Of a DNA stretch of 52,241 nt, positions 6,855 through 50,844 are shown piece by piece (position 1 is the stretch's first letter; each line of letters starts with the position of its first letter). The notes below the pieces were generated by a model. It had not been told where the DNA came from. It saw nothing but the letters and a program-made list of their open reading frames with translations, and searched no databases. The position numbers were made by a program, and so were the translations under genes. Source of the DNA: Eubacteriales bacterium (GTDB taxonomy: Bacteria > Bacillota > Clostridia > Lachnospirales > Lachnospiraceae); assembly GCA_030526265.1 (NCBI GenBank), contig JAUNDE010000010.1:754-52994 (forward strand), written 5' to 3'.

Positions 6855-7181
6855 AGTCGTCCTCTATTCTGCTCCGTTTACTTCATTTTCTTTATCTTAC
6901 ACTATTTTCCGAAAATAATAAAGAAATCCCGCTGCTTATTTTCTCCGTCTTCGTCATATTCCGCTTCGATATATAATTCGCACCAAAAACATCCAGGTTT
7001 TATTAAATAATACAATATATCTATCTATATTATATCAAATCTGCTTATACCTGGAATCCTGTGCCTTTTTCTTATCATTTAATATATAGTAATTCCCTTG
7101 TGTACATGCTATACTTTTCTCATAGAAAACTCACAAAACATGTTTATTCCAATAAATATGTTTTACCTAAAGAGGTTCATT
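6855..7181. other. Divergent intergenic region, no gene
   Basis: A 327-bp AT-rich gap between the LacI-type gene (leftward) and the DUF3343 gene (rightward). It must hold promoters for both. A TATACT at 7110-7115 could be the -10 for the rightward gene, but no convincing -35 is paired with it. No ORF, repeat or RNA structure was seen. Confidence 0.4.
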
Positions 7182-7466
7182 ATGATTACACATAAAGAAT
7201 ATTATATTTTATCTTTCGATACCACAACCGATGCTATGCAGGCCGAAAAGCAATTAAAAGAAATTTTTAACATTGCTGTCATGCCTGTACCAAGAGAAAT
7301 CAGCAGTGGATGCGGACTTTCGATTCGCTTCCAGGAGCCTGATGAAAATGCTATCACGAATCACCTTAAAGATGATCCAGATATCCATGGGACTTTATAT
7401 AAAATGAGTACTCAAAAAGTGAACGGAAAACGTATCGTAACAAAACTGTTTTCCTCATTAAAATAG
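7182..7466 (+). CDS. DUF3343 family protein (putative Se/S carrier-like)
   Basis: A 94-residue cytoplasmic protein. It matches the DUF3343 pattern as I remember it: an N-terminal YYILSFDTTTDAMQAEK segment, a central PVPREISSGCGLSIRF block and a single conserved Cys in SSGCG (about residue 46). This family is often found next to selenium or sulfur-transfer genes and has been labelled a putative Se/S carrier; its reaction is not known to me. AAGAGG is placed well for ATG 7182; an earlier in-frame ATG at 7098 has no ribosome site. The position beside the selenoprotein locus supports a link with selenium, by inference. Confidence 0.8.
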   Translation: MITHKEYYILSFDTTTDAMQAEKQLKEIFNIAVMPVPREISSGCGLSIRFQEPDENAITNHLKDDPDIHGTLYKMSTQKVNGKRIVTKLFSSLK

Positions 7467-7488
7467 GATCAAAGTAATACTCTGATCC
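7466..7488. terminator. Weak hairpin between convergent genes
   Basis: GGATCA (7466-7471) and TGATCC (7483-7488) form a short stem with one mismatch and inner AGT/ACT pairs, between the DUF3343 gene and the convergent HMA-like gene. T-rich DNA follows only loosely, so this is a tentative bidirectional terminator. Confidence 0.4.
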
Positions 7489-7502
7489 CTTAATTCTATC
7501 TT

Positions 7503-7709
7503 TTATGAAATTCTTACAGATTCGTATCCAAGTTCTTTTAAGATCTCTTCTGTTGTTGCCTGGCATGTATCACAGTCACAAACAGAAATTGTCTTATTTT
7601 CTAAACTTATTTCATAGTGTTTTACACAAGACTCTGCCAATTCTGCTTCAATTTTCTTTACACAATTTTCACAGCAAAGTCCTTCCACTTTCAACACGCG
7701 CATATCCAT
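7503..7709 (-). CDS. Heavy-metal-associated (HMA)-like small protein
   Basis: A 68-residue protein with the length and beta-alpha-beta pattern of a HMA metal-binding domain. The metal loop is LCCENC at residues 11-16, giving a CxxC with an extra preceding Cys; a second cluster, CDCDTC at 44-49, adds three more Cys, which ordinary copper chaperones lack. It likely carries a soft metal or metalloid in the cytoplasm. A strong GGAGG precedes ATG 7709. It is the last gene of the leftward run behind the DsrE-like gene (43-bp gap), so I place it in the selenium-linked locus by context. Confidence 0.8.
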   Translation of the reverse strand: MDMRVLKVEGLCCENCVKKIEAELAESCVKHYEISLENKTISVCDCDTCQATTEEILKELGYESVRIS

Positions 7710-7752
7710 TCGTCTAATCCTCCTATACTACCAATCAATAGTATTGTGACTA

Positions 7753-8085
7753 TTACAATGTAATTACCTGATCAACGCCTGCTGGGGCTAATGCTGCATA
7801 TACGTTAGGGAAGCATCCGATTCCTGCTGGTGCAATTAACTTATCAGCAATATCTCTCTGATAGCAGCATCTGTCACATGCCATCAAAAGGACACCTGTT
7901 TTTTCACTCAATGCCTGAAGTCTTGCAGCAATATCACTTCCTTCAACTAACATATAAGTATTGTCAAAGAAAAACATCATTCCAGCCACTTCTACTCCGT
8001 GACGTCCTTCTTCCATCTGTGGAATGATCATGTGTTCAAGGATTTCTCTTGCATTTGTTGATTCTAATAAATAAGCTACTTTCAT
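7753..8085 (-). CDS. saoD: DsrE-related protein, SaoD-like
   Basis: A 110-residue protein of the DsrE/DsrF-like fold: KVAYLLES opening strand, a hydrophobic second strand (VAGMMFFFDNTYML) and a Cys motif MACDRCCYQRD at about 69-79. DsrE-type proteins relay sulfur or bind small thiol-reactive species on Cys. Start chosen at ATG 8085, 10 nt after GGAGGT; the earlier ATG at 8103 has no ribosome site. It lies 158 bp after the ATPase gene on the same strand. The SaoD name is a recollection of a family found in SAO loci and rests mainly on that context. Confidence 0.75.
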   Translation of the reverse strand: MKVAYLLESTNAREILEHMIIPQMEEGRHGVEVAGMMFFFDNTYMLVEGSDIAARLQALSEKTGVLLMACDRCCYQRDIADKLIAPAGIGCFPNVYAALAPAGVDQVITL

Positions 8086-8243
8086 GGTAATTCTTACCTC
8101 CATACAATAAAAATGTTCTTAACATAATTTTATCGAAAACTGTCTATCAAAGGAAGTAATATACACATTGTTTTAAATTTTCAATAATTATCTCACAATT
8201 CTTTCAATTTATTGATAAATTAATAATTTGTAATATTATTTTG

Positions 8244-9068
8244 CTAATTATTGCTTTCTTTACCCTGAATAAATTCCATAAGTTCCTTATCTTCCTGTGT
8301 ATATACACCGCCACTTAATGCTTCTTTCAAGATCTCAGTCAGCTCATCTACATATTCATGGTATTTTGGATGTGTTCGATCTCTCGGTCTTGGAAGATCA
8401 ATCTTTAAGTCCTTGATAATCTTTCCATGATCACGAGACATTACAACAACTCGATCACTTAAATAAATCGATTCATCCACATCATGTGTTACCATGAGTG
8501 CTGTTGTTTTCTTTGCCTGGAGAATGCTCTCCAATTGCATTTGCAGCATCTGTCGCATCTGAAAATCGACAGCTCCCAAAGGCTCGTCCATCAAAAGAAC
8601 AGTTGGATCACATGCAATCGCACGGAGAAGTGCAACTCGCTGTTTCATACCACCAGAAATCTCATGAATATAATAATTTTCATATTCCGTGAGCTGTGCC
8701 ATCTCAAGTAATTCTTTTAATTTCGCTGCTCTTTCTTCTTTTGGCATTCTCTTTTTCTTCATAGGATATTCAATGTTTTCTCCTACCTTTAGCCACGGGA
8801 ACAACGCATAATTCTGAAACATAAAAGAACGATCCGGTCCCGGCTTTGTCACTTCTTTTCCATTTACTACGATTCTCCCGGCATTTGGCTTCTGAAAACC
8901 TGCAATGATCGTAAGCGTAGTTGTTTTCCCGCATCCAGACGGGCCAAGAAGAGATACAAATTCCCCCTCTTCCACCTCAAAAGATACATCTTTGAGTACT
9001 ACATTATCCGGATCACCTTTTTTTCTTCCTTTGAAACTTTTTGTGATCCCTTCAACTGAAATGGACAT
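8244..9068 (-). CDS. saoA: ABC transporter ATP-binding protein, SaoA-like
   Basis: A 274-residue ATPase of the nitrate/sulfonate/taurine importer type. Walker A is GPSGCGKT at 42-49, the signature ISGGMKQR at 137-144 and Walker B VLLMDEP at 157-163, with the switch His in MVTHD. It should power import through the permease encoded on the opposite strand at 11479-12300 and the binding protein just upstream. The start ATG lies 2 bp after the SaoB stop, so translation is probably coupled. No in-frame TGA is present. Substrate is not readable from the sequence; an organometal or soft-metal compound is inferred from the locus. Confidence 0.88.
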   Translation of the reverse strand: MSISVEGITKSFKGRKKGDPDNVVLKDVSFEVEEGEFVSLLGPSGCGKTTTLTIIAGFQKPNAGRIVVNGKEVTKPGPDRSFMFQNYALFPWLKVGENIEYPMKKKRMPKEERAAKLKELLEMAQLTEYENYYIHEISGGMKQRVALLRAIACDPTVLLMDEPLGAVDFQMRQMLQMQLESILQAKKTTALMVTHDVDESIYLSDRVVVMSRDHGKIIKDLKIDLPRPRDRTHPKYHEYVDELTEILKEALSGGVYTQEDKELMEFIQGKESNN

Positions 9069-9070
9069 TT

Positions 9071-9862
9071 TTATTCCCCACTTTCTTTTAATGGTAAAAA
9101 TTGAATTGTTTTATTTTCTACCCAGCTTTCTTCAACACCTAATTTTTCAGCAAGATACTCTGGTTTATTAAGTTTTTTCACAGCTTTGTTATAGCTGTCT
9201 ATGAAATCAGCAAATGCTTTTGTCTGCGCAAACTCTTTGTCAACAACTAATACATAGGAAATGAAATCCGTCTCGGAAAGAGGCATTGTCGGATATTGTG
9301 GTACAACCGCAGATTTCTTCAAATCCTGAATGACCGCATCCACCTGTTCATCTTCCAGAGAATACAAAAGTCCCTTTTGCGTGACATCCTGAAATTCTTC
9401 AATCTGTGGATAAGTCTTCGCCGCCTGCTCCTTTTCCTCTTCACGCCCCTGACTTACGCCCACAAGCTTCACATCTTCCCAGTCATTTTTATAGCAGATC
9501 ACTTCTGCATTCATAATGACCGGTCCATAAATCATGACATTATCGTTTTCCTCGACTGTATGAACTGCAACATGTCCACAATAAAATGCAATGTTGATTT
9601 CTTCCGCACTCAGTGCCCACTGAGCAACGTTATTTCAGCAGTCCTGGAAAGAAGAGCTCTCTACCGAGTCAGAGATGGTATACTTTCCGTCCAACTGAGC
9701 AACTGTTTCATCCATCAGTATTCCGGACATATCATCTCCGGCTCCAATTCGGATGACTGCATCGTCATTTCTCTTCTCTTCTTTTGGAAAAAAAACTGCA
9801 ACAAGAGTTCCTACTAGTATAAATCCCAGGAAAAAAGCAAATATTTTCTTATCGATCCTCAT
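9071..9862 (-). CDS. saoB: Substrate-binding selenoprotein, SaoB-like (in-frame UGA read as Sec76)
   Basis: Read through one TGA at 9637-9635 the frame gives 263 residues. An N-terminal membrane anchor (8-25, no lipobox Cys) is followed by an extracellular domain like small periplasmic binding proteins. The TGA directly follows a Cys (SSFQDC-U-NNVAQW), so the pair is Cys75-Sec76, a strong soft-metal ligand. Both halves are in the same frame with no indel, and the continuation reads as normal protein to TAA at 9071. A 6-bp hairpin with loop GGGC sits 16 nt after the TGA. The ATG overlaps the SaoE stop by one base. Alternative: a pseudogene with a nonsense codon, unlikely because four neighbours show the same pattern. 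Confidence 0.85.
9609..9624 (-). promoter_or_regulatory. Candidate SECIS hairpin for saoB
   Basis: On the minus strand CTCAGT-GGGC-ACTGAG forms a perfect 6-bp stem with a 4-nt G-rich loop. The loop starts 16 nt after the TGA at 9637-9635, inside the coding frame, as expected for a bacterial SelB-binding element. Confidence 0.65.
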
Positions 9863-11013
9863 TATTTATGCGCTTTCATCTTTCCACGAACATATCTATA
9901 GAGAGCCACAAGTGCATATCCTATAATAATCAGGTTACAGATCGTACGCCCCCATCCGGGAACTTCGATCATCATCTTGTTTACCTGCTCAATCGTATTT
10001 GATGTTCTGTCAAAATCCAATACCGGTGAAAAACCTGGCATTAACAGTTTGTTTGTTACATAGCCTGCGATAAATGCGCAGACTGTAATCATTCCGAAAT
10101 ACATCGCACTTGCTCTCTTACCAATCATCTTTGATATCGTAAGAAGTTCCGGAATGTTCGTACCTGCTCCAGCCATCAGGTACATGATTGATACACCTGG
10201 CGCAGCCCCACTGGCAACCAGAGCTGCGATAAACGGTATATGTCCTACCGCTCAAACGTACATCAGGGAAGCTACGCCTGCAATTCCCATAAGAGAGATC
10301 ACACCCGGCTGTCCCAGATAATCATGAATAAATGACTGTGGTACGATTGTGAACAAGAATCCCGCCATCAACATTCCTGTAACACTGTATTTACTGATTG
10401 TTACAGATAATTCTGTCGCTGACCAGCGAAGTCCTGACTTAATCTTATCAAAGAAAGAAGGTTCATCAAATTCCAGCTGAATCATTCCACCGATCGATGA
10501 TTCTTCTTCATCATCCATTTCCAACGCAATGGATCCTTCTGATTCTCCTGACTTTTTATTACGAAGTCCAATATGCAACTCAGAACCTGCAAATTTGTTG
10601 GCAAGTGTACCAATTATTATTGGTGCAACAAAGCCTGTGATTACATAAATAGCTGTAATCTTCGGTCCCAAAAGTCCCCATGACATCACAACCGCCAACG
10701 GATTGATCATCGGAGTACTCGTCATAAATGTAAGAGTAGGTCCCAGATATGCTCCGCTATAATACATACTGATTCCCAAAGGAATTGTTCCACAGCTGCA
10801 AATCGGAAGCATCATTCCTGTCAGGGTTGTCCAAAGAAGTCCTGTAAATTTAGTTGAACCGATCGATGTCTTCTGCATCTGTTCTGGCTTGATAAATTCA
10901 TGCAGGAGACCCGCTACAATAAAACTAAAAATAACCCATGTAGAAGAACTGTCAAGCATCGACCACGCTGTTAATAGGATGTTCTTCATAAACACACTCA
11001 ATTCTGCTATCAT
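9862..11013 (-). CDS. saoE: Efflux permease selenoprotein, SaoE-like (in-frame UGA read as Sec254)
   Basis: With the TGA at 10254-10252 read as Sec the protein has 383 residues, the usual size for the DUF318/ArsP-like permease family, with about eight membrane helices in two bundles. The first bundle carries PICSCGTIPLG (Cys72, Cys74). The second has MYV-U-AVGHIPFIAALVASG followed by the family's AGAGTNIPELL block, so Sec occupies the position of a membrane Cys in the symmetrical half. Family members export organoarsenicals and similar compounds; export of the compound handled here is inferred. GGAGG lies inside saoT, whose end overlaps this start (ATGA). The acidic loop at 160-180 is cytoplasmic. 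Confidence 0.87.
10211..10250 (-). promoter_or_regulatory. Candidate SECIS region for saoE (two hairpins)
   Basis: After the TGA at 10254-10252 the minus strand first forms CGGTA-GGACATA-TACCG (10250-10234), then CTGG-TTG-CCAG (10221-10211) whose loop is 34 nt from the TGA. The second is at the usual SECIS distance; the first is unusually close. Which one SelB would bind cannot be told by eye. Confidence 0.5.
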
Positions 11014-11264
11014 ATCTTAAGCGCCTCCTCAAATGCTTTTCGTACTGCCGGTTTTGTAAGCTTTGTCACCGCTTTTTTCTCATTGATGACCAACATACTT
11101 CTCGAAACAGCACCGTATTTTGGTATATAATCAAAATCCACACCCGCCTGATAAATCTTCACATTTACTCTGCCGGCATAGTCGTTCGAAAGGGCTTGAA
11201 CCAAGTCCGCAAAAACTTCACATCATGCACAAGCAGCTATATATTCAATACATGGTTTTTCCAT
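11010..11264 (-). CDS. saoT: Thioredoxin-like selenoprotein, SaoT-like (Cys-Ala-Sec-Cys)
   Basis: A conventional call gives only a 64-residue fragment from 11204. Extending upstream in frame to ATG 11264, placed 10 nt after GGAGGT, adds an N-terminal strand and an active-site loop: IEYIAACA-U-CEVFADL, with TGA at 11225-11223 as residue 14 of 84. The rest (VKIYQAGVDFDYIPKYGAVSR, SMLVINE) follows the small redox-active disulfide protein family, in which the loop is CxxC. Here it is C-A-U-C, giving two Cys and one Sec. It would reduce or accept the cargo in the cytoplasm. First gene of the leftward operon saoT-saoE-saoB-saoA; the stop TGA is backed by an immediate TAG. Confidence 0.86.
11195..11208 (-). 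promoter_or_regulatory. Candidate SECIS hairpin for saoT
   Basis: On the minus strand CTTG-GTT-CAAG (11205-11195), extended by GG/CC with one bulged base, begins its loop 21 nt after the TGA at 11225-11223. Position, small loop and leading G fit a bacterial SECIS. Confidence 0.6.
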
Positions 11265-11373
11265 TTCTACGCATACCTCCTCCATTGTATTTAGCCTCCC
11301 TATTATATCTCCTGAAAACATTCTTTTCCCTTTTTATAAAAAAAAACAATAGTAATCCATGTATTTATTTCTT

Positions 11374-11401
11374 TGTCAAATATTTGTGTCATATATATTA
11401 A
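11374..11401. promoter_or_regulatory. Possible shared-35 divergent promoters of saoT and saoP
   Basis: The same 8 bp holds TTGTCA on the plus strand (11373-11378, then 17 nt and TATTAA at 11396) and TTGACA on the minus strand (11379-11374). The plus -10 is moderate and the minus -10 (TACTAT, 19-nt spacer) weak. Suggests back-to-back promoters where a regulator could act on both directions. Confidence 0.35.
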
Positions 11402-11478
11402 TATTTTGTTATTATTTCAGTGTATGTAGTGAAAGATTTCATTTACTTTGTTTGCGTATATGTCCAGGAGGTGAGTTT

Positions 11479-12300
11479 ATGAGTGAAAACAAACAGGTAA
11501 ATCGTATGATACATGCCACTCAAAACAAAGACAGGCGTAATTGGCGCAAATTTGGTGATAAAAACTATAATGTCGGCGCAATCATTTCATTGATCGTAAT
11601 TGGTGTTGTTTGGTTCTTTGCTGCCCATGTAGTAAATCAGCCTTTCACCTTCCCTTATCTGGAAGATGTGTTATATCAGGTTGGATATTGTTTGACTGAT
11701 ATGTATGTATTAACCAACCTTGCAATTACTATGAGGCGTGTATTAACCGGATGTCTCTACGCATTTATTATAGGTTTTCCTATTGGAATGCTCATGGGAT
11801 TTTCTCCAAAAATTTTAAAGTGGATGGCACCATTTATTAACTCTCTGCGTCAGGTTCCGATTATGGCATGGGTTCCACTGGCAATTGTATGGTTCGGTAT
11901 TGGTGATGGTCCGACCATTTTCCTTATTGCATTCAGTGGCGTGTTCACAGTCATCCTAAATACAATTCAAGGTGTACAGGATATCAGCAAAGATTTCTAT
12001 AACGCTGCAAGATCCATGGGTGCCAATACTTTCAGTCTTATCAAAGACATTGTTGTTCCCGGCTCGCTCCCAGGTGTGTTAACCGGTCTTAGACTTGCAA
12101 TTGGTCTTGGCTGGATGTCAGTTATATGAGCGGAGTTCATTGCGACAAGTGCCGGGTTCGGTTACATAATGGTGGAAGCACAGGCAATGCTTGAGACTGC
12201 AACAGTTATCGCATATATGATTATCGCAGCTGTTATCGGTTATCTTATCGATACTCTTTTAGTTCTTTTCGAAAGAATATTATTAAGATGGAGAGCATAA
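11479..12300 (+). CDS. saoP: ABC transporter permease selenoprotein, SaoP-like (in-frame UGA read as Sec217)
   Basis: The frame from ATG 11479 (GGAGGTG 6 nt upstream) to TAA 12300 gives 273 residues if TGA 12127-12129 is read through. It is an SsuC/TauC-type importer permease with about six helices. The EAA-like coupling loop (AARSMGANTFSLIKDIVVPG) lies just before the TGA, and GWMSVI-U-AEFIATSAGFGYIM follows the family pattern in which a small or Val/Ala residue normally stands where Sec is. The last helices (VIAYMIIAAVIGYLIDTLLV) are intact after the TGA, so truncation there would destroy the transporter. It should pair with the SaoA ATPase although transcribed in the opposite direction. 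Confidence 0.86.
12151..12162 (+). promoter_or_regulatory. Candidate SECIS hairpin for saoP
   Basis: GCCG-GGTT-CGGT forms a 4-bp stem (last pair G-U) with loop GGTT, starting 25 nt after the TGA at 12127-12129 and lying in the coding frame. Confidence 0.55.
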
Positions 12301-12317
12301 CTGAATAATGAACATTA

Positions 12318-12358
12318 AGGCGGATAACAAGGGCATGCCCACCAGGTTGCTCCCGCCT
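12318..12358 (+). other. Unexplained structured element downstream of saoP
   Basis: AGGCGG (12318-12323) pairs with CCGCCT (12353-12358). Inside are the perfect palindrome GGGCATGCCC (12331-12340) and AAC/GTT arms. It begins 18 bp after the saoP stop and is not followed by a T run, so it is not a simple terminator. GC content is well above its surroundings. It could be an RNA structure in the 3' end of the transcript or a protein-binding site. Confidence 0.35.
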
Positions 12359-12368
12359 GAAATAATAA

Positions 12369-12411
12369 AAAGAAGAAGGAGGATTCTAAAACAGAATTTT
12401 CCTTCTTCTTT
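12369..12411. terminator. Bidirectional terminator between saoP and lysR
   Basis: AAAGAAGAAGG (12369-12379) and CCTTCTTCTTT (12401-12411) form an 11-bp perfect stem with inner GATTCT/AGAAT pairs. On the minus strand the stem runs into TTTTTATTATT, so it is strongest as the end of the LysR gene, whose stop is 3 bp away. Confidence 0.7.
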
Positions 12412-12413
12412 GA

Positions 12414-13322
12414 TTATTTGAATTTACCTTGGCAATATTCTCTTAATTCTCTCAAAACTTCTTCACAACTGTTTCCAAGCATTCGATCTTTGTGATACAA
12501 CAGATATATTTTTCTCGTCGATGATGTTCCTTCAAATGAAAAACCCAAAACTTTCTGCTTATCCAATGATTCTTTTGCTGCAATCTTACTAATAAACGCA
12601 ACTCCTGTACCTGACTCTACCGCCCTTCGAACCATCTCTGAGGACTGAAACTGTACCGCCACATTTAGTGCGTGCGGATCTAAATGAAGTTCCATCTCCA
12701 GATTATCTGTGATGGTCTTTGTACCGCTTCCGATCTCTCTGACAATATACTTTTCTTTTTTCAGCTGCTCAATCGGGAACTTCCCATTCATACTGCGATA
12801 TTTCTGAGTATTCGGAGTGATTAAAATAATTTCATCTTCAAAAAGAACTTCTGAATGAATCTTCTCACTTCCACTATCCAAACTTCCGATTCCGATTTCA
12901 ACCTCAAAGTCAAATATTTTCTGAAGGACATCCCCACTGTCTCCTTCCATAACTTTAAAGTTAATATTCTCATTTTTATTCCGAAAATATCCCAAAAAAT
13001 CAGGAAGCATATAATAACCCGGCACAGATGAAACAGCCATTGAAATGGTACCTTCAATACCATCGGCCGTCTTTTTCAGCTGTCCTATTGCCTTATTCTC
13101 TATCTCAAGAAGTTGAATAGCGTATGGGTAAAACGCCTTTCCCTCTTTTGATAATAAGATGTCTCTCGTTGAGCGCACCAGCAGCTGCACTCCCAATTCG
13201 GCTTCAAGCTGTTTGATATGTGTACTGATGGTTGGCTGGGATAAAAACAGATATTTTGCGGCTAATGAAAAGCTTTTGTAATTTACAACTCCGACAAAAC
13301 TTTTCAAATAATCCAAACGCAT
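12414..13322 (-). CDS. LysR-family regulator of the selenium-linked locus
   Basis: A 302-residue LysR-type regulator with an N-terminal winged helix-turn-helix (FSLAAKYLFLSQPTISTHIK, about 18-37) and a co-inducer domain from about residue 90. It resembles the CysL/CysB-like group; I recall a LysR subgroup associated with selenium metabolism, and this one could belong, but that is memory plus context. It sits convergent to saoP and divergent from the second binding-protein gene, the classic arrangement for a LysR regulator controlling its divergent neighbour. Start ATG 13322 behind GGAAGGAGGG. The inducer is not readable from the sequence. Confidence 0.82.
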   Translation of the reverse strand: MRLDYLKSFVGVVNYKSFSLAAKYLFLSQPTISTHIKQLEAELGVQLLVRSTRDILLSKEGKAFYPYAIQLLEIENKAIGQLKKTADGIEGTISMAVSSVPGYYMLPDFLGYFRNKNENINFKVMEGDSGDVLQKIFDFEVEIGIGSLDSGSEKIHSEVLFEDEIILITPNTQKYRSMNGKFPIEQLKKEKYIVREIGSGTKTITDNLEMELHLDPHALNVAVQFQSSEMVRRAVESGTGVAFISKIAAKESLDKQKVLGFSFEGTSSTRKIYLLYHKDRMLGNSCEEVLRELREYCQGKFK

Positions 13323-13629
13323 TTTATCCCTCCTTCCAAAATATTACTAATTTGTCATAATATTATTTTAAAACCGTTCAAAATAATTGTCTAATAGAAA
13401 AATCTTATGTCGCTTATTGTTTCTATCTATTTATTTATTCGCTTTCAAAATATTTCAGGTTCAATTATTTAAAATGTTAATATAATTCAATTTTGCTTTT
13501 TCTTTATCTTCCGTTTTGTTATTATGGGTTTACAAATATTAATAAAAATTAATTTTTTCAGAATCACGAAATATTTTCAAAAGTGTCTCTGAACAGTTAC
13601 ATTCATTTTTCGTTTGGGAGGAAAATATT
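13323..13629. promoter_or_regulatory. Divergent lysR / binding-protein control region
   Basis: A 307-bp very AT-rich gap. A near-palindrome, TTCAATTAT (13460-13468) with ATAATTCAA (13482-13490), eight of nine bases matching, is the best candidate for a LysR site. A weak TTGCTT with TGTTAT 18 nt on could drive the rightward gene. No ORF was seen. Confidence 0.35.
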
Positions 13630-14910
13630 ATGAAAAAAAGAATTATCGCTGCTCTCTTAGTAGCAGCAATGTCATTATCTCTCCTCACAGGATGTCACGA
13701 CAGCGGAACGGGCAATGCTGTTGAAGTATCTGAAACAGACTACGATCCAAAGGAAGCGGTAGCTGATTTCGAATTCGGTGAGTTAAATGACGTTGAAAAA
13801 GACTACGTTGTGGAAATGGGATACTTCGCCTGCGACCACATGGTATGCTCAATCATTGGCGAAAAAGCTGGTATCTACGATGCACTCGGAATAAAAGTAA
13901 ATCTTACGAAATCACCTGAGACAGTTAACGCACTGATCAGTGGTGCTATGGACGTAGGATATATCTTCTTTAACAAGAACCTTATGGCTCCGGAATCACC
14001 AATTTTCCAGGCATCTGCTAACCACCTTGGTGGTTCTCGTTACCTTGTTGTTAATCCAGATGTAATTGATGTGAACGATCCGAAATCAATTGAAGGGAAA
14101 CGTATCGGATGCCTTTCAGAGCCTGAGATCAACTCCGAATGGAGAAAATGGTCTGAGGAATATGGCTTCTCTTACAACTCTGCAGACTATGAACTCGTTA
14201 CAATGGGACAGCAGGATGCAATGTTCGCATTGAAGGCAGGACAGATCGATGCTTTCACATGTTGTGACCCATATGCTTCTATGGCAGAATTCGAAGGATT
14301 TGGTAAAATAATGGCTATCAGCTGGGGAGCAAACCTTGAAGAGGGCGAACTTCTTTCAGATGCCAACGCATCTACATGCTGTAGTTATGCGATGTCTAAG
14401 AAATTCCGTGAAGAGTGTCCGGAACTTTCCCGTCGTATGATTTACGCTCATGCACTTGCTGTAGAATACTTATACACACATCCATACAATGCAGCATTGA
14501 TGTTCGCAGATGGATTTGATGCTGATCCATATGTAGGACTTCGTACCGTATATATGAAGACGGTAGCCGAAGGTCGTACAATCACATGGCAGTGGTCAGA
14601 GCAGAATATGAAGAACAACGAAGAATTCGATATGCAGTGGACAAACCCATCTATACCGGAAGAAGACATTATCCATGCTGATGAAGCAGCTACATCCCTT
14701 GAATTATCAGGCGAGATCTTCAAGGATGCCGGCGTAAAAGACTTTGATGAATTTATCTCTAAAGAGGTTGATAAAACATTCCCTCTTGGAATGACATTTG
14801 AAGACTGGTACAATGCAGCAATTATCGTTGACGGTGTTGCAAAAGAAGATGCTGTTGATATCACAAAAACAGCCACACCATATTTGAACGAAAACTTAGA
14901 AGAGAAATAA
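13630..14910 (+). CDS. ABC transporter substrate-binding lipoprotein, Cys-rich
   Basis: A 426-residue lipoprotein with signal peptide and lipobox LLTGC (Cys22). The mature part has the two-lobe fold of nitrate/sulfonate/thiamine-precursor binding proteins (EKAGIYDALGIKVNLTKSP, then ALKAGQIDAFTCCDPYA). It contains an unusual set of cysteines: Cys68, Cys73, and two vicinal pairs Cys211-Cys212 and Cys250-Cys251 close to the predicted ligand cleft. Vicinal thiols bind soft metals and arsenicals well, so a thiophilic cargo is a reasonable inference. No permease or ATPase adjoins it; it may feed the SaoP/SaoA transporter. Start ATG 13630 after GGGAGG. No TGA interrupts it. Confidence 0.85.
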   Translation: MKKRIIAALLVAAMSLSLLTGCHDSGTGNAVEVSETDYDPKEAVADFEFGELNDVEKDYVVEMGYFACDHMVCSIIGEKAGIYDALGIKVNLTKSPETVNALISGAMDVGYIFFNKNLMAPESPIFQASANHLGGSRYLVVNPDVIDVNDPKSIEGKRIGCLSEPEINSEWRKWSEEYGFSYNSADYELVTMGQQDAMFALKAGQIDAFTCCDPYASMAEFEGFGKIMAISWGANLEEGELLSDANASTCCSYAMSKKFREECPELSRRMIYAHALAVEYLYTHPYNAALMFADGFDADPYVGLRTVYMKTVAEGRTITWQWSEQNMKNNEEFDMQWTNPSIPEEDIIHADEAATSLELSGEIFKDAGVKDFDEFISKEVDKTFPLGMTFEDWYNAAIIVDGVAKEDAVDITKTATPYLNENLEEK

Positions 14911-14935
14911 ATAGCAACATATCATTCCTTATGTG

Positions 14936-14967
14936 AAGAACCGCAGAGCACTCGCTCTGCGGTTCTT
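14936..14967. terminator. Strong terminator after the binding-protein gene
   Basis: AAGAACCGCAGAGC and GCTCTGCGGTTCTT make a perfect 14-bp stem with loop ACTC. It lies between the rightward binding-protein gene and the convergent sensor kinase, so it can serve both. Confidence 0.85.
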
Positions 14968-14979
14968 TGTAATTTTATT

Positions 14980-16596
14980 CTATTCTTTTTGCCGGACTCT
15001 TGGAAAGTCAAGAATGAACATTGTTCCTTTCCCTTCTTCTGTCTTTGCCCGGACACGCCCTCCATGCTCCTGAGTGAGCCGGGTCACTACAGTCAGACCA
15101 ATTCCAGTTCCTTCTCCTGGCTGCTTTGTTGTAAAAAACGGCTGAAATACTTTCGCCTGAATTTCTTCAGGAATCCCCGTTCCCGTATCTTCCACAATAA
15201 GCCTTACATATTTTTCATTGTCTGTACTCAGTCCAAACTGAATCTTCAATACTCCTCCATCTTTCATAGCATGAATCGCATTCGTTGTCAGATTGAGTAA
15301 AATCTGATTGAGCGTTCCAACTTGTCCATGAATATAATAAGCTGTCTTACATATAGTCGTCTTTAATTGTATATTCGAAGGAATCAGTTTCTGTACCATA
15401 CTCACTGCCTCATTCACAGCATATGTTGCATCATAATCTGTCAGTACCTTCTCGGCTTTTCCCTGTCTGCTGTAACTTAAAAGCTGTCTTGCAAGCTCTT
15501 CACACCGAAACGCTGCACTCTTAAGTTCAGTAACTTCTTCGGGCATTTCCTGTTTTACAATTTCATTTTCCTCTAACAGATCTGCGTACAAAACAATCGG
15601 AGTCATCAGGTTATTAAATTCATGTGCAATTGCTCCTGTCAAAACTCCCATTGTCTTCGAGTGATTATACTTTTGCATGAGACCTTCCTGTTTTTTCATC
15701 GTCTCATTCAATGTTTTCTCATGCTGAAGTTCTTTCTCAAGAATTGCTTCCTTTTTTTGATGATCATATATCGAGTACATAAATCCAACAACAATCAGAA
15801 TCAGTACAACTCCAATCAAGCAAAGATACAACGCTATCTGTTCGATCGGTTTCACCAGCTGATCATAATCTTCGATAATATATAATACTAATTCCTCAGA
15901 ACCAATTTCTATATTCTCATAGGCAATCAATTTTCTTGTTCTTTCAGGCGTCACACCATTCGCTTCATAGATCCATGCAATGGTGCATCCATTATCCATT
16001 GTCTGGGAAATAGATATATTCCCTTCCGCATGATCACTCGGCATAATCGTTTCCCCATCAGAATCCTTCACGATACAGTATCGGCTATTGGCGACTTCGA
16101 GACTCGAAAGAGCCTGCTCATTTGCATAAAAATCATCCAGATCGATTTCTATCTGTACAACTCCCGTAATTTTGCCACTCACCGAGACTGCCTTTGTCAT
16201 ATACAGAATGTAACCGCCTGATTCGGATTGTATGATTGGTCCAATGATCACTTCCCAAGGTGCATTGACCGCTCCCTTTATTATCTCATCCGCCCCTTCT
16301 TCTGCCAGATAATCTGATTCAACATATTTTCCTTTTTCACCTAATTTTAAAAGTGTCGCCTCGATTTCCGATTCTGTCTCCATATCACCCGAGAACAAAG
16401 AGAAAATCTTCTCAGACTTTGCATATAAACTTGACTCCATACTCTGTGCATTTACTTTTGCAAGGCTCTTTAATCCCTCCTGCTCATTACCAATAATTGT
16501 CTTCTCTACCCTTCGATAACAGAATATTGCAGTTAATGCAAGCAGGAACAGGCCCATCATTGCTATGATCGCCTGTTTTCTTATAGTTTTCTTCAT
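14980..16596 (-). CDS. Membrane sensor histidine kinase
   Basis: A 538-residue kinase. One N-terminal helix (about 8-28), an extracellular Cache-like sensor (about 30-245, with GGYILYMTKAVSVSGKITGVV), a second helix (about 252-276), a coiled coil, then the kinase core. The H box is GAIAHEFNN, of the NtrB-like type, the N box LTTNAIHAM, and the G boxes DTGTGI and GEGTGIGL. ATG 16596 is chosen because GAGG lies 9 nt upstream; the longer frame from 16617 lacks a site. It is divergent from an OmpR-type regulator whose start is 116 bp away; the two are probably partners. Its place between locus genes suggests it senses the transported compound, by inference. Confidence 0.87.
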   Translation of the reverse strand: MKKTIRKQAIIAMMGLFLLALTAIFCYRRVEKTIIGNEQEGLKSLAKVNAQSMESSLYAKSEKIFSLFSGDMETESEIEATLLKLGEKGKYVESDYLAEEGADEIIKGAVNAPWEVIIGPIIQSESGGYILYMTKAVSVSGKITGVVQIEIDLDDFYANEQALSSLEVANSRYCIVKDSDGETIMPSDHAEGNISISQTMDNGCTIAWIYEANGVTPERTRKLIAYENIEIGSEELVLYIIEDYDQLVKPIEQIALYLCLIGVVLILIVVGFMYSIYDHQKKEAILEKELQHEKTLNETMKKQEGLMQKYNHSKTMGVLTGAIAHEFNNLMTPIVLYADLLEENEIVKQEMPEEVTELKSAAFRCEELARQLLSYSRQGKAEKVLTDYDATYAVNEAVSMVQKLIPSNIQLKTTICKTAYYIHGQVGTLNQILLNLTTNAIHAMKDGGVLKIQFGLSTDNEKYVRLIVEDTGTGIPEEIQAKVFQPFFTTKQPGEGTGIGLTVVTRLTQEHGGRVRAKTEEGKGTMFILDFPRVRQKE

Positions 16597-16712
16597 ATAT
16601 AAATTCCTCATGTACAATTCTGTGAAACATCTGGACTTTTTTGCGTTTTTTGGCTAAACTTAAACCGTGTCACGATACACATGTTAACAAAACACAGAAA
16701 GGATACCTTATT

Positions 16713-17426
16713 ATGAATCATATCTCTGTGCTTGTCATTGATGATGAAAAATCTGTATTAAAAGCAATTTCAGCTGCATTAAAACATGAAAAAATAGATG
16801 CTACTTGTTCCTCTGGCAGCAAAGAAGCTCTTGAATACTTAAAGAAACAATCTTTTGATATCATTTTACTAGATATTATGATGCCTGAGCAAGATGGTTT
16901 TTCTTTTTTAAAGGAACTGCGCAAAAATCAGATTCTGACTCCGGTCCTTCTCCTTAGTGGACGCGAAGAAGATGCCGCTCAGGTAGAGGGACTTGAGCTT
17001 GGTGCAGATGATTATATGACCAAACCATTCAGCAAATCAGTTCTTGTTTCAAAGATCCGTGCTATTGTAAGAAGAAATCAGCAATACGCTCCAACTTCGT
17101 CTCCTGCTCAAAATTCTTCAACAATGCAGACAGTAGCAACACTTGGGAATTTCACCATACATTTTGATTCTCAGACTGTTTTAAAGGGTGGAAAAGAGAT
17201 TTCACTTTCTTCGAAAGAGTTCGCTCTCTTGTGCCTGTTTATGGAAAATCCGGAAAAACTTTTCACAAAACAGGAAATTTTTACAAAAGTCTGGAAAAGC
17301 GAAGCATCGGATGATAATACGATTCTTGTTTATATCAAACGACTTCGTGACAAAATCGAGACGAACCCTTCAAGGCCAGAGCATCTTATGACCGTCTGGG
17401 GAAAAGGATATAAATTTATTCCATAA
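16713..17426 (+). CDS. OmpR-family response regulator
   Basis: A 237-residue regulator. The receiver domain (1-120) has the acidic pair Asp10-Asp11, phospho-acceptor Asp54 in ILLDIMMP and Lys in TKPF. The C-terminal winged helix (about 145-235) has the typical SLSSKEFALLCLFMENP and VYIKRLRDKIE elements. Start at ATG 16713 behind GAAAGGA; the longer frame from 16641 would overlap promoter DNA of the divergent kinase. Target genes are not visible, but the next operons rightward (SaoC and the dehydratase-like pair) and the kinase itself are candidates. Confidence 0.87.
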   Translation: MNHISVLVIDDEKSVLKAISAALKHEKIDATCSSGSKEALEYLKKQSFDIILLDIMMPEQDGFSFLKELRKNQILTPVLLLSGREEDAAQVEGLELGADDYMTKPFSKSVLVSKIRAIVRRNQQYAPTSSPAQNSSTMQTVATLGNFTIHFDSQTVLKGGKEISLSSKEFALLCLFMENPEKLFTKQEIFTKVWKSEASDDNTILVYIKRLRDKIETNPSRPEHLMTVWGKGYKFIP

Positions 17427-17434
17427 ATGATTAT

Positions 17435-17471
17435 AAAAGCCAGCCGCAACTAAAAATTGCAGCTGGCTTTT
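17435..17471. terminator. Bidirectional terminator between response regulator and saoC
   Basis: AAAAGCCAGC pairs with GCTGGCTTTT, then one mismatch and GCAA/TTGC, with loop CTAAAAA-like. It ends both the rightward response-regulator gene and the leftward saoC gene. Confidence 0.8.
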
Positions 17472-17477
17472 CCCTGA

Positions 17478-17492
17478 CTGGAGACCCTCCAG
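17478..17492 (-). promoter_or_regulatory. Candidate SECIS hairpin for saoC
   Basis: On the minus strand CTGGA-GGGTC-TCCAG has a perfect 5-bp stem and a GGGTC loop 19 nt after the TGA at 17509-17507. The GGUC-containing loop resembles the SECIS of E. coli fdhF. It lies beyond the real TAG stop, where only a recoding role or chance explains it. Confidence 0.65.
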
Positions 17493-17503
17493 CCCAATCT
17501 TCT

Positions 17504-18115
17504 CTATCAGCACTCTTCCATTCCCTGGTCAAATAAACTGACCGGTTCTCCTTCCATCACACGAAAAATTCCGTATCCAATTTTAGATCCCTTCTGACCC
17601 TGAAGAACGAATTCGATTTCTTCTTGTTCATCAATATTCTGAAATTTGATTCTCTGATTTTCTACCGGTGCAGGTACCAGTTCTGAACACTCATAGTTCT
17701 CACCGTCTCCAGAATCCACCATAACACAAAGTCGAATATATCCTCCGTCAATCAGCTGTGTATTTGCACTGTGTTCGTCCTCATGCGGATTATTTACCAC
17801 CAACACGAGGTCCTTACATCCATCATTGGTCAGATCCTCTTCACAGGCAACTAATATCTTTGCATCCGGATATAATTCTTTGAATTTCATCAGTATCTTA
17901 TTATCATCCGGCACATTTTCTGCATAATCAAGTTCTCGACCCACTCGTTCATCCGATTCTCCATCATAAACGACAGTTTCACCAGTGCCAATATTATTCA
18001 GAACATCATAAAGGTGATCCAACTGCGTTCTGATAAAAAAACCTGTCAGAAAGATGACTGCAATCAGGACGGCTCTTCCTTTGAAACTTTTGAAAAAAGT
18101 CATCATCTTTTTCAT
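17504..18115 (-). CDS. saoC: Membrane-anchored Cys-Sec-COOH protein, SaoC-like
   Basis: A 203-residue protein with an N-terminal anchor (about 14-28) and an extracellular domain. The usual reading ends QGMEEC at TGA 17509-17507, but the next codon is TAG and a SECIS-like hairpin follows, so I read the true end as Cys202-Sec203-COOH. I remember the SaoC family as proteins ending in Cys-Cys or a Sec variant, which this fits exactly. A terminal Cys-Sec pair on a flexible tail is suited to grabbing a thiophilic metal or organometal. Internal segment VACEEDLTNDGCKDLVLVVNN resembles an integrin-like repeat. ATG 18115 is preceded by AGAGGA. If Sec is wrong the protein is simply one residue shorter. 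Confidence 0.82.
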
Positions 18116-18337
18116 AAGGTATCCTCTGTATCAATTTATAACAATTCTGTAATATTTAACGTATCTATTTTACCTTCTCGGGAATGAAATGTAAAGTTTT
18201 TCATTTATTACAAAACATAATAAAAGATACCGGAAATATTGGTTTATCGAAAGAGTTTTCCTCTGCGTTGTGCTTAATATTGATGCATGTTAGTTTAAGT
18301 ATAGAGAATAACGGAATCACATTTAAGGAGGATCTTT

Positions 18338-19531
18338 ATGGCTAACGAATTACCAAAAAATTTCGAAGAATTTGCTGATGCACGACGCGTTGGCTTTCTT
18401 AAAATGAAAGAAGTAAAAGATGCCGGCATGAAAGTGTGCGGAATGTTCTGTCAGTATACACCTGCTGAGATCATCCATGCAGCCGGTCTGAAACAGGTTG
18501 CTCTTTGCGGTAGAAGTCATCTTCCAATCAAAACAGCAGAGACGCGCCTTCCAGCCAACCTTTGCCCACTGATCAAAGCCAGCTTTGGTCATGTAATGGA
18601 AGACAGTTGTCCATTTGCCTTTTTCTCAGACATTGTTGTTGGCGAGACAACCTGTGATGGAAAGAAGAAAATGTATGAACTGCTTGGCGAATATAAGCCA
18701 ATGGAAGTGATCCATTTGCCAAATATTCCAGATTATGAACGTTCACTGGATATGTGGGTTTCAGAGGTACGCAAATTCAAAGAAGCTTTGGAAAGACATT
18801 TTGATATCACCATCACAGATGACATGCTGAACGAATCCATCGTATGGAACAACAAATTAAGAACGCAGCAGGCGCATCTCTATGAATTAGGAAAATACGA
18901 TCCGCCGGCAGCTACCGGTGTTGATATGAACAATGTTACTGATGGACTTCAGTTCATGTTCGATGATGAAGAAAAATACCAAAAGATTGCTTCTGTCATT
19001 GAAGAAAGCGAGAAGAACTGGCACGAAGGAAAATATCCGGTTGAACCAGATCCATACCGTCCAAGACTGATCGTTTCCGGCGGTGGATATGTTGCAACAA
19101 ACGAAAAAACCATTAATGTCATGGAAGAACTCGGCGCTTCCATCGTCTGCTATGAAGGATGCTGCGGTATCTCATCCCTTCGCCGCACAATTGATGAAGA
19201 CACAAGCCGTGATCCAATTGTTCGTATCGCAGAGAAATACTTGGAAGTTCCATGTGCTGTTGTATCACCTAACACCAGACGTATGGAACAGGTAGCTGAC
19301 ACAATCGACGAATGGAATGCCGATGGATATGTCAGCATCACGCTCCATGCCTGCAACCCATTTGCAGTAGAAACAGAAAACTTAAGACGTGTTTGCGAAT
19401 CAAAAGGGATTCCTCTTTTACATATTCAGACAGACTTTACACCTGGTGATGAGAGTCAGATTCGTACACGTATTGAAGCTTTCCTTGAAATGATCCGTGA
19501 AAATAAAAAGGAGGCTGCTAAACATGAATAA
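18338..19531 (+). CDS. 2-hydroxyacyl-CoA dehydratase/double-cubane-cluster family protein A
   Basis: A 397-residue cytoplasmic Fe-S protein of the HgdB/FldB/BcrC-like family. Cysteines at 34, 38, 57, 76, 91 and 106, the ETTCDGKKKMYELL motif (103-116), a later GCCGISS and LHACNPF give the pattern seen in double-cubane-cluster reductases and dehydratase subunits. Such proteins do low-potential two-electron reductions after activation by an ATP-dependent activase. No activase gene is in the window. Gene B overlaps its end by 8 bp, so they form an A/B pair, probably a heterodimer. AAGGAGG fits ATG 18338. The substrate is unknown; its place next to saoC is suggestive only. Confidence 0.8.
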   Translation: MANELPKNFEEFADARRVGFLKMKEVKDAGMKVCGMFCQYTPAEIIHAAGLKQVALCGRSHLPIKTAETRLPANLCPLIKASFGHVMEDSCPFAFFSDIVVGETTCDGKKKMYELLGEYKPMEVIHLPNIPDYERSLDMWVSEVRKFKEALERHFDITITDDMLNESIVWNNKLRTQQAHLYELGKYDPPAATGVDMNNVTDGLQFMFDDEEKYQKIASVIEESEKNWHEGKYPVEPDPYRPRLIVSGGGYVATNEKTINVMEELGASIVCYEGCCGISSLRRTIDEDTSRDPIVRIAEKYLEVPCAVVSPNTRRMEQVADTIDEWNADGYVSITLHACNPFAVETENLRRVCESKGIPLLHIQTDFTPGDESQIRTRIEAFLEMIRENKKEAAKHE

Positions 19532-20615
19532 ACAGGAATTACAAAACAGTATTTCTAGTTGCCATGCGAACGGCAAAAAAGTGGCACTCTCCTTCTGTTC
19601 TCATGTTCCACAGGAAGTTTTGGAAGCAGCAGGATTCTATTCTCTTCGTGTGCCTTATATTCAGGATGTAGAAGATGCTGCATCTGAGATTCTGGTCAGC
19701 AACGTATGTCCGATCGTAAAAAATGTTTGCGACATTTGTGAAGATCCTTCTTTCTCTGAAGCAGATTTCATCCTTGCCGAGACATCATGCGACGGAAAGA
19801 AGAAGATGTATGAGCTGCTTTCCGATCAGGACAGACTCTATTTCTATCAGGTAGGTCAGGGAGCCGATAGAGACTATGTCAGACCATTGATCAAATCAGA
19901 AGTTAAATATTTGATCAGAGAGATCAAACGGCGCTTTGATATCGATGTAACAGATGATAAGATACGCGAAGCTGCCAAACTTGTAAATTCTGAAAGAGAA
20001 AGCATTAAAAATCTCATGGCGATTCAAAAATCTGTACCGGCTGCTGCCTGGGGCGGAGAAATCTTCAAAGCACTCGAAACACATCGTGCTCTCCCATCTA
20101 TTGAAGATCGAATTGCTGCAAACAATGCTTTCCGCGAGAAATTACTTTCGAAAGAAAGTCCGATAAAAAAATCTGCAAGGCGAATCTTGATCACCGGTTG
20201 CCCAATGAGCAGTGTTTACTCCAAGATCGTTGAAGCTGTAGAAAATAATGGTGGTGTTATCGTGGCATTTGAAAACTGTGAAGCACTCAAACCCGCGATC
20301 CGTCACTTTGATACAGATAATGAAGATATATATGAGGCATTTGCAGACTGTTATCAGAATACAGCCTGTGCAATCATGTCTCCAAACACAATCCGCTTCA
20401 ACTTAATCGAAGAACTCGTAAATGACTATCAGGTAGATGGTGTGCTGGATGTCACATTACATGCATGTCATCCATACACAGTTGAAAAAGATAAAGTAAT
20501 GCGTCTCTGTCATGAAAAACTTGGCATTCCATATATGACAATCGAAACAGATGCCGGAAATTCCAATACCGGACAGTTGGAAACAAGAATCGCCGCATTT
20601 ATTGAAATGCTGTAA
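19524..20615 (+). CDS. 2-hydroxyacyl-CoA dehydratase/double-cubane-cluster family protein B
   Basis: The 363-residue second subunit, homologous to its upstream neighbour: both share ET(T/S)CDGKKKMYE, a VCPI/LCPL cysteine, and LHAC(N/H)P. Here cysteines fall at 13, 25, 62, 69, 72 and 89. Compared with A it lacks the GCCG pair (ENCEAL instead), so the two probably differ in cluster binding. Start ATG 19524 is placed after AAAGGAGG and overlaps the stop of A (ATGAATAA), implying coupled translation. The longer frame from 19497 lies within gene A. Followed at once by a strong terminator, closing a two-gene operon. Confidence 0.8.
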   Translation: MNKQELQNSISSCHANGKKVALSFCSHVPQEVLEAAGFYSLRVPYIQDVEDAASEILVSNVCPIVKNVCDICEDPSFSEADFILAETSCDGKKKMYELLSDQDRLYFYQVGQGADRDYVRPLIKSEVKYLIREIKRRFDIDVTDDKIREAAKLVNSERESIKNLMAIQKSVPAAAWGGEIFKALETHRALPSIEDRIAANNAFREKLLSKESPIKKSARRILITGCPMSSVYSKIVEAVENNGGVIVAFENCEALKPAIRHFDTDNEDIYEAFADCYQNTACAIMSPNTIRFNLIEELVNDYQVDGVLDVTLHACHPYTVEKDKVMRLCHEKLGIPYMTIETDAGNSNTGQLETRIAAFIEML

Positions 20616-49465: not shown

Positions 49466-49777
49466 CTAACATCCGGCGTTTTTCAGAAGCTCCTGCACCT
49501 GGGCAGCCTTTAATACCTTTCCCATTGCCACAACCTTTTCGTTGACAACGATAGCTGGCATACTCATGACACCATAGCTCATAACGATTTCCATATCTGT
49601 GATGTACTCAACTTCAGCATCGAGCTTCATGTCCGCAACTGCCTTTTTCACATTTTCATACTGCTCGTGGCAGGACTTGCATCCCGCTCCCAGGACTTTG
49701 ATCGTACATCCGCTTCCTCCACAGCAGCATTCACCTTTTGTTTCCTCTTTTTTCTTACCAAATCCAAATAATCCCAT
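49466..49777 (-). CDS. Small redox-active disulfide (thioredoxin-like) protein
   Basis: A 103-residue protein. Residues 1-25 hold a basic, Cys-rich start (ECCCGGSGC), followed by a minimal thioredoxin fold with active site LGAGCKSCHEQY (CxxC) and the cis-Pro block VMSMPAIVVNE. Such proteins act beside DUF318 permeases. Compare saoT, which has the same fold with Cys-Ala-Sec-Cys. ATG 49777 follows AGGAG; the longer frame upstream is rejected. Last gene of the ArsR-controlled operon (37-bp gap to the permease). Confidence 0.87.
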   Translation of the reverse strand: MGLFGFGKKKEETKGECCCGGSGCTIKVLGAGCKSCHEQYENVKKAVADMKLDAEVEYITDMEIVMSYGVMSMPAIVVNEKVVAMGKVLKAAQVQELLKNAGC

Positions 49778-49814
49778 ATTGATAAATCTCCTTTCTTTTT
49801 TCACTTTTCCGCTC

Positions 49815-50810: not shown

Positions 50811-50828
50811 ACATATACCTCCATCTAT

Positions 50829-50844
50829 ATAGATATGCATCTAT
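50829..50844. promoter_or_regulatory. Second ArsR-type site, before the permease
   Basis: ATAGAT-ATGC-ATCTAT shares the ATAGAT/ATCTAT arms with the operator upstream of arsR, 19 bp before the permease start. Probably gives the regulator control of an internal promoter. Confidence 0.55.

Follow-up and report, generated by a model that had tools for sequence, protein, structure and literature searches.

The stretch of DNA analysed here, hereafter the window, comprises 52,241 nucleotides of contig JAUNDE010000010.1 from a Lachnospiraceae genome (GCA_030526265.1), and all coordinates below are positions in it. When both strands were translated, once with TGA as a stop and once as a residue, a gene cluster spanning 7098-20615 emerged, in which eight products, SaoA, SaoB, SaoC, SaoD, SaoE, SaoP, SaoT and SaoX, score over the cut-offs of their own NCBIfam models. 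The locus is of the SAO type, the selenocysteine (Sec)-assisted organometallic system of Haft and Gwadz (2023), as presented in a 2026 review (PMC13188914), and it departs from this known kind of system in two respects, a probable Sec in the permease SaoE and the loss of the lyase SaoL. A preliminary description, made from the sequence of the window, had already named the system, which the model scores and the SAO operon described in the main text of the review bear out. It had also set the limits of the stretch correctly at 7503-18115; the present analysis adds, within these limits, SaoX, a LysR regulator and the genes for a sensor kinase and a response regulator, as well as the absence of SaoL.

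In-frame TGA codons of the SAO locus

Four genes, saoB, saoE, saoT and saoP, keep an unshifted frame across one TGA each when this codon is taken as a residue, and the 3' end of saoC reads GAG TGC TGA TAG, so that SaoC would end in Cys-Sec (Table 1). The both-strand readings thus reproduce the earlier observation of five genes with a single in-frame TGA, with saoC ending one codon early at it. That such genes are invisible to standard gene calling was an overstatement: calling with translation table 11 does cut four of them and leave SaoC one residue short at its end, but models for these proteins exist at NCBI. Unless read-through of UGA is allowed, ordinary gene calling breaks permeases of this kind into two parts. 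Another TGA, at 11010-11012, overlaps the start of saoE and was read as the natural stop of saoT, whose start perhaps lies at 11285 or 11264. For SaoP, the start is most likely the ATG at 11479, which is preceded by a good ribosome-binding site, AGGAGGTGA. SaoB begins with an N-terminal hydrophobic stretch.

The SAO selenoproteins given in the main text of the review are SaoL, SaoC, SaoX, SaoB, SaoP and SaoT, with six selenoprotein genes in the operon; the motifs given there are CUxxT for SaoB, CU for SaoC and UxxC for SaoT, with none for SaoP. The window resembles the system so described in having SaoA, SaoB, SaoC, SaoD, SaoE, SaoP, SaoT and SaoX and, as far as sequence can indicate, Sec in SaoB, SaoC, SaoP and SaoT. 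It differs in a SaoE with probable Sec, a SaoX with Cys and the lack of a SaoL match.

Table 1 Features of the SAO cluster and adjoining genes in the window
Feature	Position	Strand	In-frame TGA and context	Basis
Small Se/S carrier-like protein adjoining the cluster	7098..7466	+		PF11823 69.9 bits, cut-off 25; start codon uncertain
HMA-domain metal-binding protein with extra CDCDTC stretch	7503..7709	-		PF00403 26.2 bits, cut-off 24.8
SaoD, DsrE-related	7753..8103	-		NF040732 187.9 bits, cut-off 169
saoA-saoD gap, 140 bases; saoL here in near relatives	8104..8243	-		Gene order, gap sequence
SaoA, ATP-binding cassette (ABC) transporter ATPase	8244..9068	-		NF040729 441.6 bits, cut-off 360
SaoB, putative substrate-binding selenoprotein	9071..9862	-	9635-9637, DCU	NF040727 264.1 bits, cut-off 140
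SaoE, ArsP-type efflux permease	9862..11013	-	10252-10254, YVUAVGHIPF	NF040736 518 bits, cut-off 325
SaoT, putative thioredoxin-like selenoprotein	11010..11321	-	11223-11225, CAUC	NF040730 100.7 bits, cut-off 65
SaoP, putative ABC permease selenoprotein	11479..12300	+	12127-12129	NF040733 395.3 bits, cut-off 295
LysR-type regulator, selenium-metabolism family	12414..13322	-		NF040786 285.1 bits, cut-off 250
SaoX, substrate-binding protein	13630..14910	+	none	NF040735 434.3 bits, cut-off 300
Sensor histidine kinase	14980..16617	-		HATPase_c over cut-off; HisKA, dCache_1 below theirs
Response regulator, OmpR type	16641..17426	+		NCBIfam response-regulator models, best 25 of 104 all below cut-off
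SaoC, putative C-terminal Cys-Sec protein	17504..18115	-	17507-17509, then TAG 17504-17506	NF040734 155.2 bits, cut-off 80
Double-cubane-cluster reductase (DCCP)	18338..19531	+		NF040772 429.6 bits, cut-off 350
Second DCCP-like protein	19497..20615	+		NF040772 311.5 bits, below cut-off 350

Sec sites across relatives and the means of decoding them

To place the TGAs among related loci (numbered L0xx, with G3xx for genomes of the comparison set), a species collection of 84,980 genomes by its own description was scanned with the SaoE alignment. As a result, 49 loci were found, 46 of them with SAO neighbours; L089, L090 and L091 are permeases without such neighbours. With the window and two loci of the same family added, eight protein families were aligned in 38 to 51 rows each, using bit-score floors of 240 for SaoA, 200 for SaoE, SaoP and SaoX, 100 for SaoD, 60 for SaoC, 55 for SaoT and 50 for SaoB. 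The rows are not independent, some genomes being near-copies; SaoE, for instance, is identical in L042 and L057, apparently the same genome, and in L044 and L045. The gene order T-E-B-A-(L)-D-HMA is common to the window, L043-L045 and L047-L049, and the genes are arranged otherwise in other clades.

The preliminary description had proposed that homologues should carry Cys or Sec in the TGA columns, and this is what the alignments contain, with few exceptions. Sec and Cys account for 46 and 4 of the 50 SaoP rows, 25 and 17 of the 42 SaoB rows, 38 and 8 of the 51 SaoT rows, 8 and 33 of the 44 SaoC rows (last residue) and 3 and 44 of the 51 SaoE rows, respectively. The exceptions are five SaoT rows with Gly (L082-L086, Tissierella and Tissierellia records), in which Sec lies two residues earlier, one SaoC row with Ala, and two SaoC and four SaoE rows (L067, L071, L078 and L087) without a residue at the site. 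In seven of the eight SaoC rows with Sec, TAA or TAG directly follows the Sec codon. A cultured relative, Extibacter muris DSM 28560 (L061), has Cys in SaoE and predicted Sec in SaoP and SaoT. The window has Cys at both sites of SaoX, where Cys and Sec are found in 36 and 8 of 44 rows at one column and in 43 and 1 at the other, so Sec in SaoX is no fixed trait.

Over the eight families, 134 core TGAs fall on the named columns and 29 elsewhere. Most of the latter are in SaoT (24, comprising 13 natural stops and 11 before the start), and the other five are close to a terminus of SaoA (4) or SaoD (1); in SaoB, SaoE, SaoP, SaoX and SaoC, core TGAs are confined to the named columns. Judged by these alignments, the placement is more than chance. 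It bears directly on the alternative that nonsense mutations in a degenerating cluster, or errors of assembly, account for the TGAs. The loss of saoL does show that this cluster can lose genes, and the draft genome is in 107 contigs, but the same Cys columns carry TGAs across dozens of loci, the frames after the TGAs are open and conserved, with SaoE identity alike on both sides, and the SaoE TGA is common to one well-supported clade. We therefore consider this explanation very improbable, in agreement with the earlier judgement that five independent nonsense mutations in one cluster would be improbable.

The genome, a 2.23 Mb draft of 93.27% completeness, has the means to read these codons. 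As a check set beforehand, selA, selB, selD and the tRNA-Sec gene were searched for, and all are present: selA at 603.5 bits (cut-off 267.9), tRNA-Sec at 64.4 (cut-off 47), on which ARAGORN agrees with anticodon TCA, and SelB and SelD over their cut-offs. Rfam and tRNA scans of the window gave no match, the Sec genes being on another contig; one contig carries YedF, SelD, SelA, SelB, a LysR regulator, a cysteine desulfurase family protein and YedE. SelD is often itself a selenoprotein with Sec near its N-terminus, and the SelD frame here has its own in-frame TGA in that region, in TAGUAAK. Among the 48 SAO genomes, selA was detected in 46 (45 over the cut-off); one of the two without a match, G331, has Cys at all Sec sites. 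A genome-wide reassignment of UGA to another residue would also let several genes of one cluster read through UGA. However, TGA terminates seven of the 46 listed genes of the window and is thus also a stop here, the Sec machinery is present and the partner residue in the columns is Cys, which leaves this possibility with next to no credibility. The comparison across relatives thus supports TGAs in SaoB, SaoE, SaoT, SaoP and SaoC that sit at Cys/Sec columns, with machinery predicted to read them.

Signals of the Sec insertion sequence (SECIS) kind were examined in several ways. Relative to synonymous shuffles, the G-loop hairpin is lower in Sec rows than in Cys rows for SaoC (-3.81 kcal/mol in 8 rows vs -0.51 in 33), SaoP (-3.54 in 46 vs -0.78 in 4), SaoX (-3.49 in 8 vs -1.04 in 36) and SaoT (-3.19 in 38 vs -1.78 in 8), and the contrast is less clear for SaoB (-2.17 in 25 vs -1.55 in 17). 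Codon agreement was counted where both rows share the amino acid, comparing the 18 codons after the site with the rest and dropping pairs of at least 90% identity or with too few shared codons. Its mean excess is +0.239 between Sec rows (26 pairs) and +0.001 between Cys rows (458 pairs) for SaoX, and +0.201 (1013 pairs) and +0.063 (6 pairs), respectively, for SaoP. Plain folding of the 51 bases after the site gave mixed results overall, with mean z of -1.78 in Sec rows (8) and -0.85 in Cys rows (36) for SaoX, and the opposite for SaoB (-0.66 in 25 and -1.36 in 17).

Several of these results weigh against Sec in all five proteins of the window. In the window itself, the number of shuffles per 100 that are as low as the hairpin is 2 for SaoC, 6 for SaoP, 10 for SaoB, 43 for SaoT and 50 for SaoE, so only SaoC and SaoP stand out. 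Codon agreement is slight in SaoB (+0.029 between Sec rows, +0.035 between Cys rows) and SaoT (+0.044). Consensus folds of the Sec rows of SaoP, SaoT, SaoB and SaoX are no better than shuffles, 12 to 18 of 100 being as low, and consensus folding of the SaoC Sec rows yields no structure. The SECIS evidence is uneven across the five genes. In addition, G329, the genome of locus L073, has a TGA in saoP and yet no selA match; this metagenome-assembled genome (MAG) is perhaps incomplete.

SaoE as a probable selenoprotein

SaoE likely contains Sec in the window, as suggested by comparison with its relatives. The three rows with Sec, from the window, L048 and L050, form one clade with support of 100/100 in a tree of 44 of the 47 residue-bearing rows, which includes all Sec rows and leaves out one of two copies in L042, L057 and L058. 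The closest SaoE in this tree is that of L050 (77% identity). The parts of SaoE on either side of the TGA are similarly conserved, with identities of 0.77 (before) and 0.70 (after) to L048 and of 0.76 and 0.77, respectively, to L050. SaoE exceeds its cut-off in four of 299 genomes taken from the family; of these matches, that of the window alone contains an internal TGA. Two SaoE copies per SAO cluster occur in L057, L058 and L042.

Between the window and L048, codons agree at 18 of 18 positions after the SaoE TGA and at 113 of 239 elsewhere; the corresponding counts are 12 of 18 and 122 of 243 between the window and L050, and 12 of 18 and 128 of 260 between L048 and L050. The mean excess is +0.289 for pairs of Sec rows (3 pairs) and -0.023 for pairs of Cys rows (930 pairs). 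When 1317 spans of 18 codons each, taken from the Sao genes, were compared between the window and L048, the top ones start around the SaoE TGA, followed by those at the SaoP TGA, and no span away from these two sites equals them.

The possibility was considered that the SaoE TGA is a true stop yielding a shortened permease, with the other four proteins containing Sec. The hairpins after the SaoE site are alike in Sec and Cys rows (-1.23 vs -1.42 kcal/mol against synonymous shuffles), and the site ranks in the top 18% of off-site spans between the window and L050 and in the top 10% between L048 and L050, which is moderate codon agreement. Moreover, only three genomes carry the TGA, all of them MAGs or a draft of 107 contigs. 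These points also count against Sec in SaoE. On the other side, a true stop would remove about one third of the protein, yet that part is conserved; the most conserved codon spans between the window and L048 start around this TGA; and plain folding gives a mean z of -2.32 for the three Sec rows, lower than the -1.09 of the 44 Cys rows. We consider a true stop improbable and retain SaoE as a likely selenoprotein.

Among known families, SaoE matches PF03773 (ArsP_1) at 175.3 bits (cut-off 32.3). ArsP-type permeases act in organoarsenical efflux; SaoE differs from them in being a separate NCBIfam equivalog that lies amid ABC importer genes. SaoE also matches the SO_0444 family model of Cu/Zn efflux transporters (NF033936) below its cut-off, at 197.7 of 300 bits. 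The main text of the review gives a Sec motif, UxC, for that family. This motif would sit at the first-half CSC motif, whereas the Sec of SaoE is predicted in YVUAVGH. Searching by sequence at E 0.01 gave no relative of SaoE with a solved structure. Elsewhere in the window, a Thioredoxin_3 protein (49466-49855) and a second ArsP_1 permease (49815-50840) form a redox-plus-permease pair like SaoT and SaoE, with no internal TGA.

The word SaoE does not occur in the main text of PMC13188914, and SaoE is unnamed among the matches listed in a literature search on SaoE, selenoprotein and selenocysteine; as a literature term, SaoT gave unrelated matches. In the further citing articles that were searched for SAO terms, only the reference to Haft and Gwadz (2023) came up. 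As far as we could find, Sec in SaoE and the absence of SaoL go beyond what the main text of the review describes.

Loss of SaoL and the proposed transport route

The SaoL model (NF040728) has no match in the genome of the window, and no frame of at least 35 residues in the window matches the SaoL of a relative. Close relatives have the order T-E-B-A-L-D-HMA, with saoL between saoA and saoD, where the spacing in the window is too small for this gene. saoL has been lost from this version of the locus, which therefore does not include a SaoL step that breaks a carbon-metal bond. The same model matches in 31 of 47 other SAO genomes (28 over the cut-off) and in none of the remaining 16, so SaoL is not universal to SAO, with the reservation that most of these 16 are MAGs and may be incomplete. 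In Dorea sp. 5-2, the core of saoL (L047, 12700-13060) is deleted, with its start and end still in place. Of 26 SaoL rows, 22 have a CU motif, three are too short at the site and one has Cys.

Without SaoL, the cargo either needs no cleavage or is dealt with by a different enzyme. Candidates for that role are the double-cubane reductases beside saoC, on the basis of their nearness, not of their function. Of the 46 SAO loci, 24 have a DCCP-like gene within the sequence retrieved around them (phmmer with the two proteins of the window, at least 180 bits), in loci ranging from L047 to L086, and about one DCCP-bearing SAO locus would be expected if the copies per genome were evenly spread. By a hand count without a statistic, such genes are nearby in 11 of 16 loci without SaoL and 13 of 30 with it, a difference that is not relied upon. 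Other neighbours recur as well: the HMA protein stands beside saoD likewise in L043, L044, L045, L047, L048 and L049, and kinases of a similar kind are present in related SAO loci, L043, L044 and L061 among them.

The importer part has counterparts among nitrate/bicarbonate and sulfonate ABC importers (CmpB, NrtB, SsuA), as SaoP aligns with CmpB of 9u9z (E 7e-26) and SaoX is SsuA/NMT1-like. It differs from them in the probable Sec of the permease SaoP and the Cys, or Sec in some relatives, of the binding protein SaoX. The locus also recalls mer operons with their MerB lyase and MerP, through the HMA protein of the window and through the SaoL of relatives, which is MerB-like by model name; unlike in those operons, no lyase of the SaoL type was matched in this genome.

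Taken together, we read the locus as an SAO-type system with five Sec proteins (SaoB, SaoC, SaoE, SaoP and SaoT) that would handle soft metals or organometals and has lost SaoL, with a rough probability of 0.6. Sec and Cys at so many steps suit a soft metal or metalloid, and the locus may transport soft metals or organometals. The cargo would be held outside the membrane on Sec and Cys residues of SaoB (DCU), SaoC (C-terminal CU) and SaoX. SaoX, SaoP and SaoA would form an importer, the cargo passing through SaoP and SaoA with a Sec in the membrane part. Inside the cell, SaoT, SaoD and the HMA protein may handle the cargo, and SaoE would expel it, with Sec in the second-half motif YV(C/U)AVGHIPF. 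Two considerations weigh against this scheme: the order of transport and the cargo are deduced from homology only, the preliminary description having likewise called the substrate conjectural, and the loss of SaoL weakens the term organometal for this species.

A related view is that the cluster takes up a soft metal or metalloid, inorganic or bound to a thiol, and detoxifies or scavenges it, organometal cleavage being optional where saoL is kept. The patchy presence of SaoL among SAO genomes, its loss here, the deleted core in Dorea sp. 5-2 and the membership of SaoE and the HMA protein in metal-handling families are consistent with this view. However, the possible incompleteness of most SaoL-less genomes speaks against it, and the CU motif in most SaoL rows fits an important role where SaoL is kept. 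We regard it as a serious possibility that falls short of even odds. An extension of the five-Sec-protein reading is put forward with similar reserve: SaoE may represent a further SAO selenoprotein family, a permease for metal efflux whose membrane motif bears a selenolate, acquired a single time in the clade of the window, L048 and L050, and SAO, which here would operate without the lyase and perhaps with the DCCPs, may at heart be a system of soft-metal transport and redox chemistry rather than of organometal cleavage.

In summary, if the five-Sec-protein reading is true, a single transport route would have Sec at almost all of its steps, down to the exporter, and the chemistry of the cargo would become testable, because a soft metal or metalloid is what a membrane transporter with a selenolate suggests. 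The lyase-free version of the locus separates transport from cleavage and shows which genes to test first.

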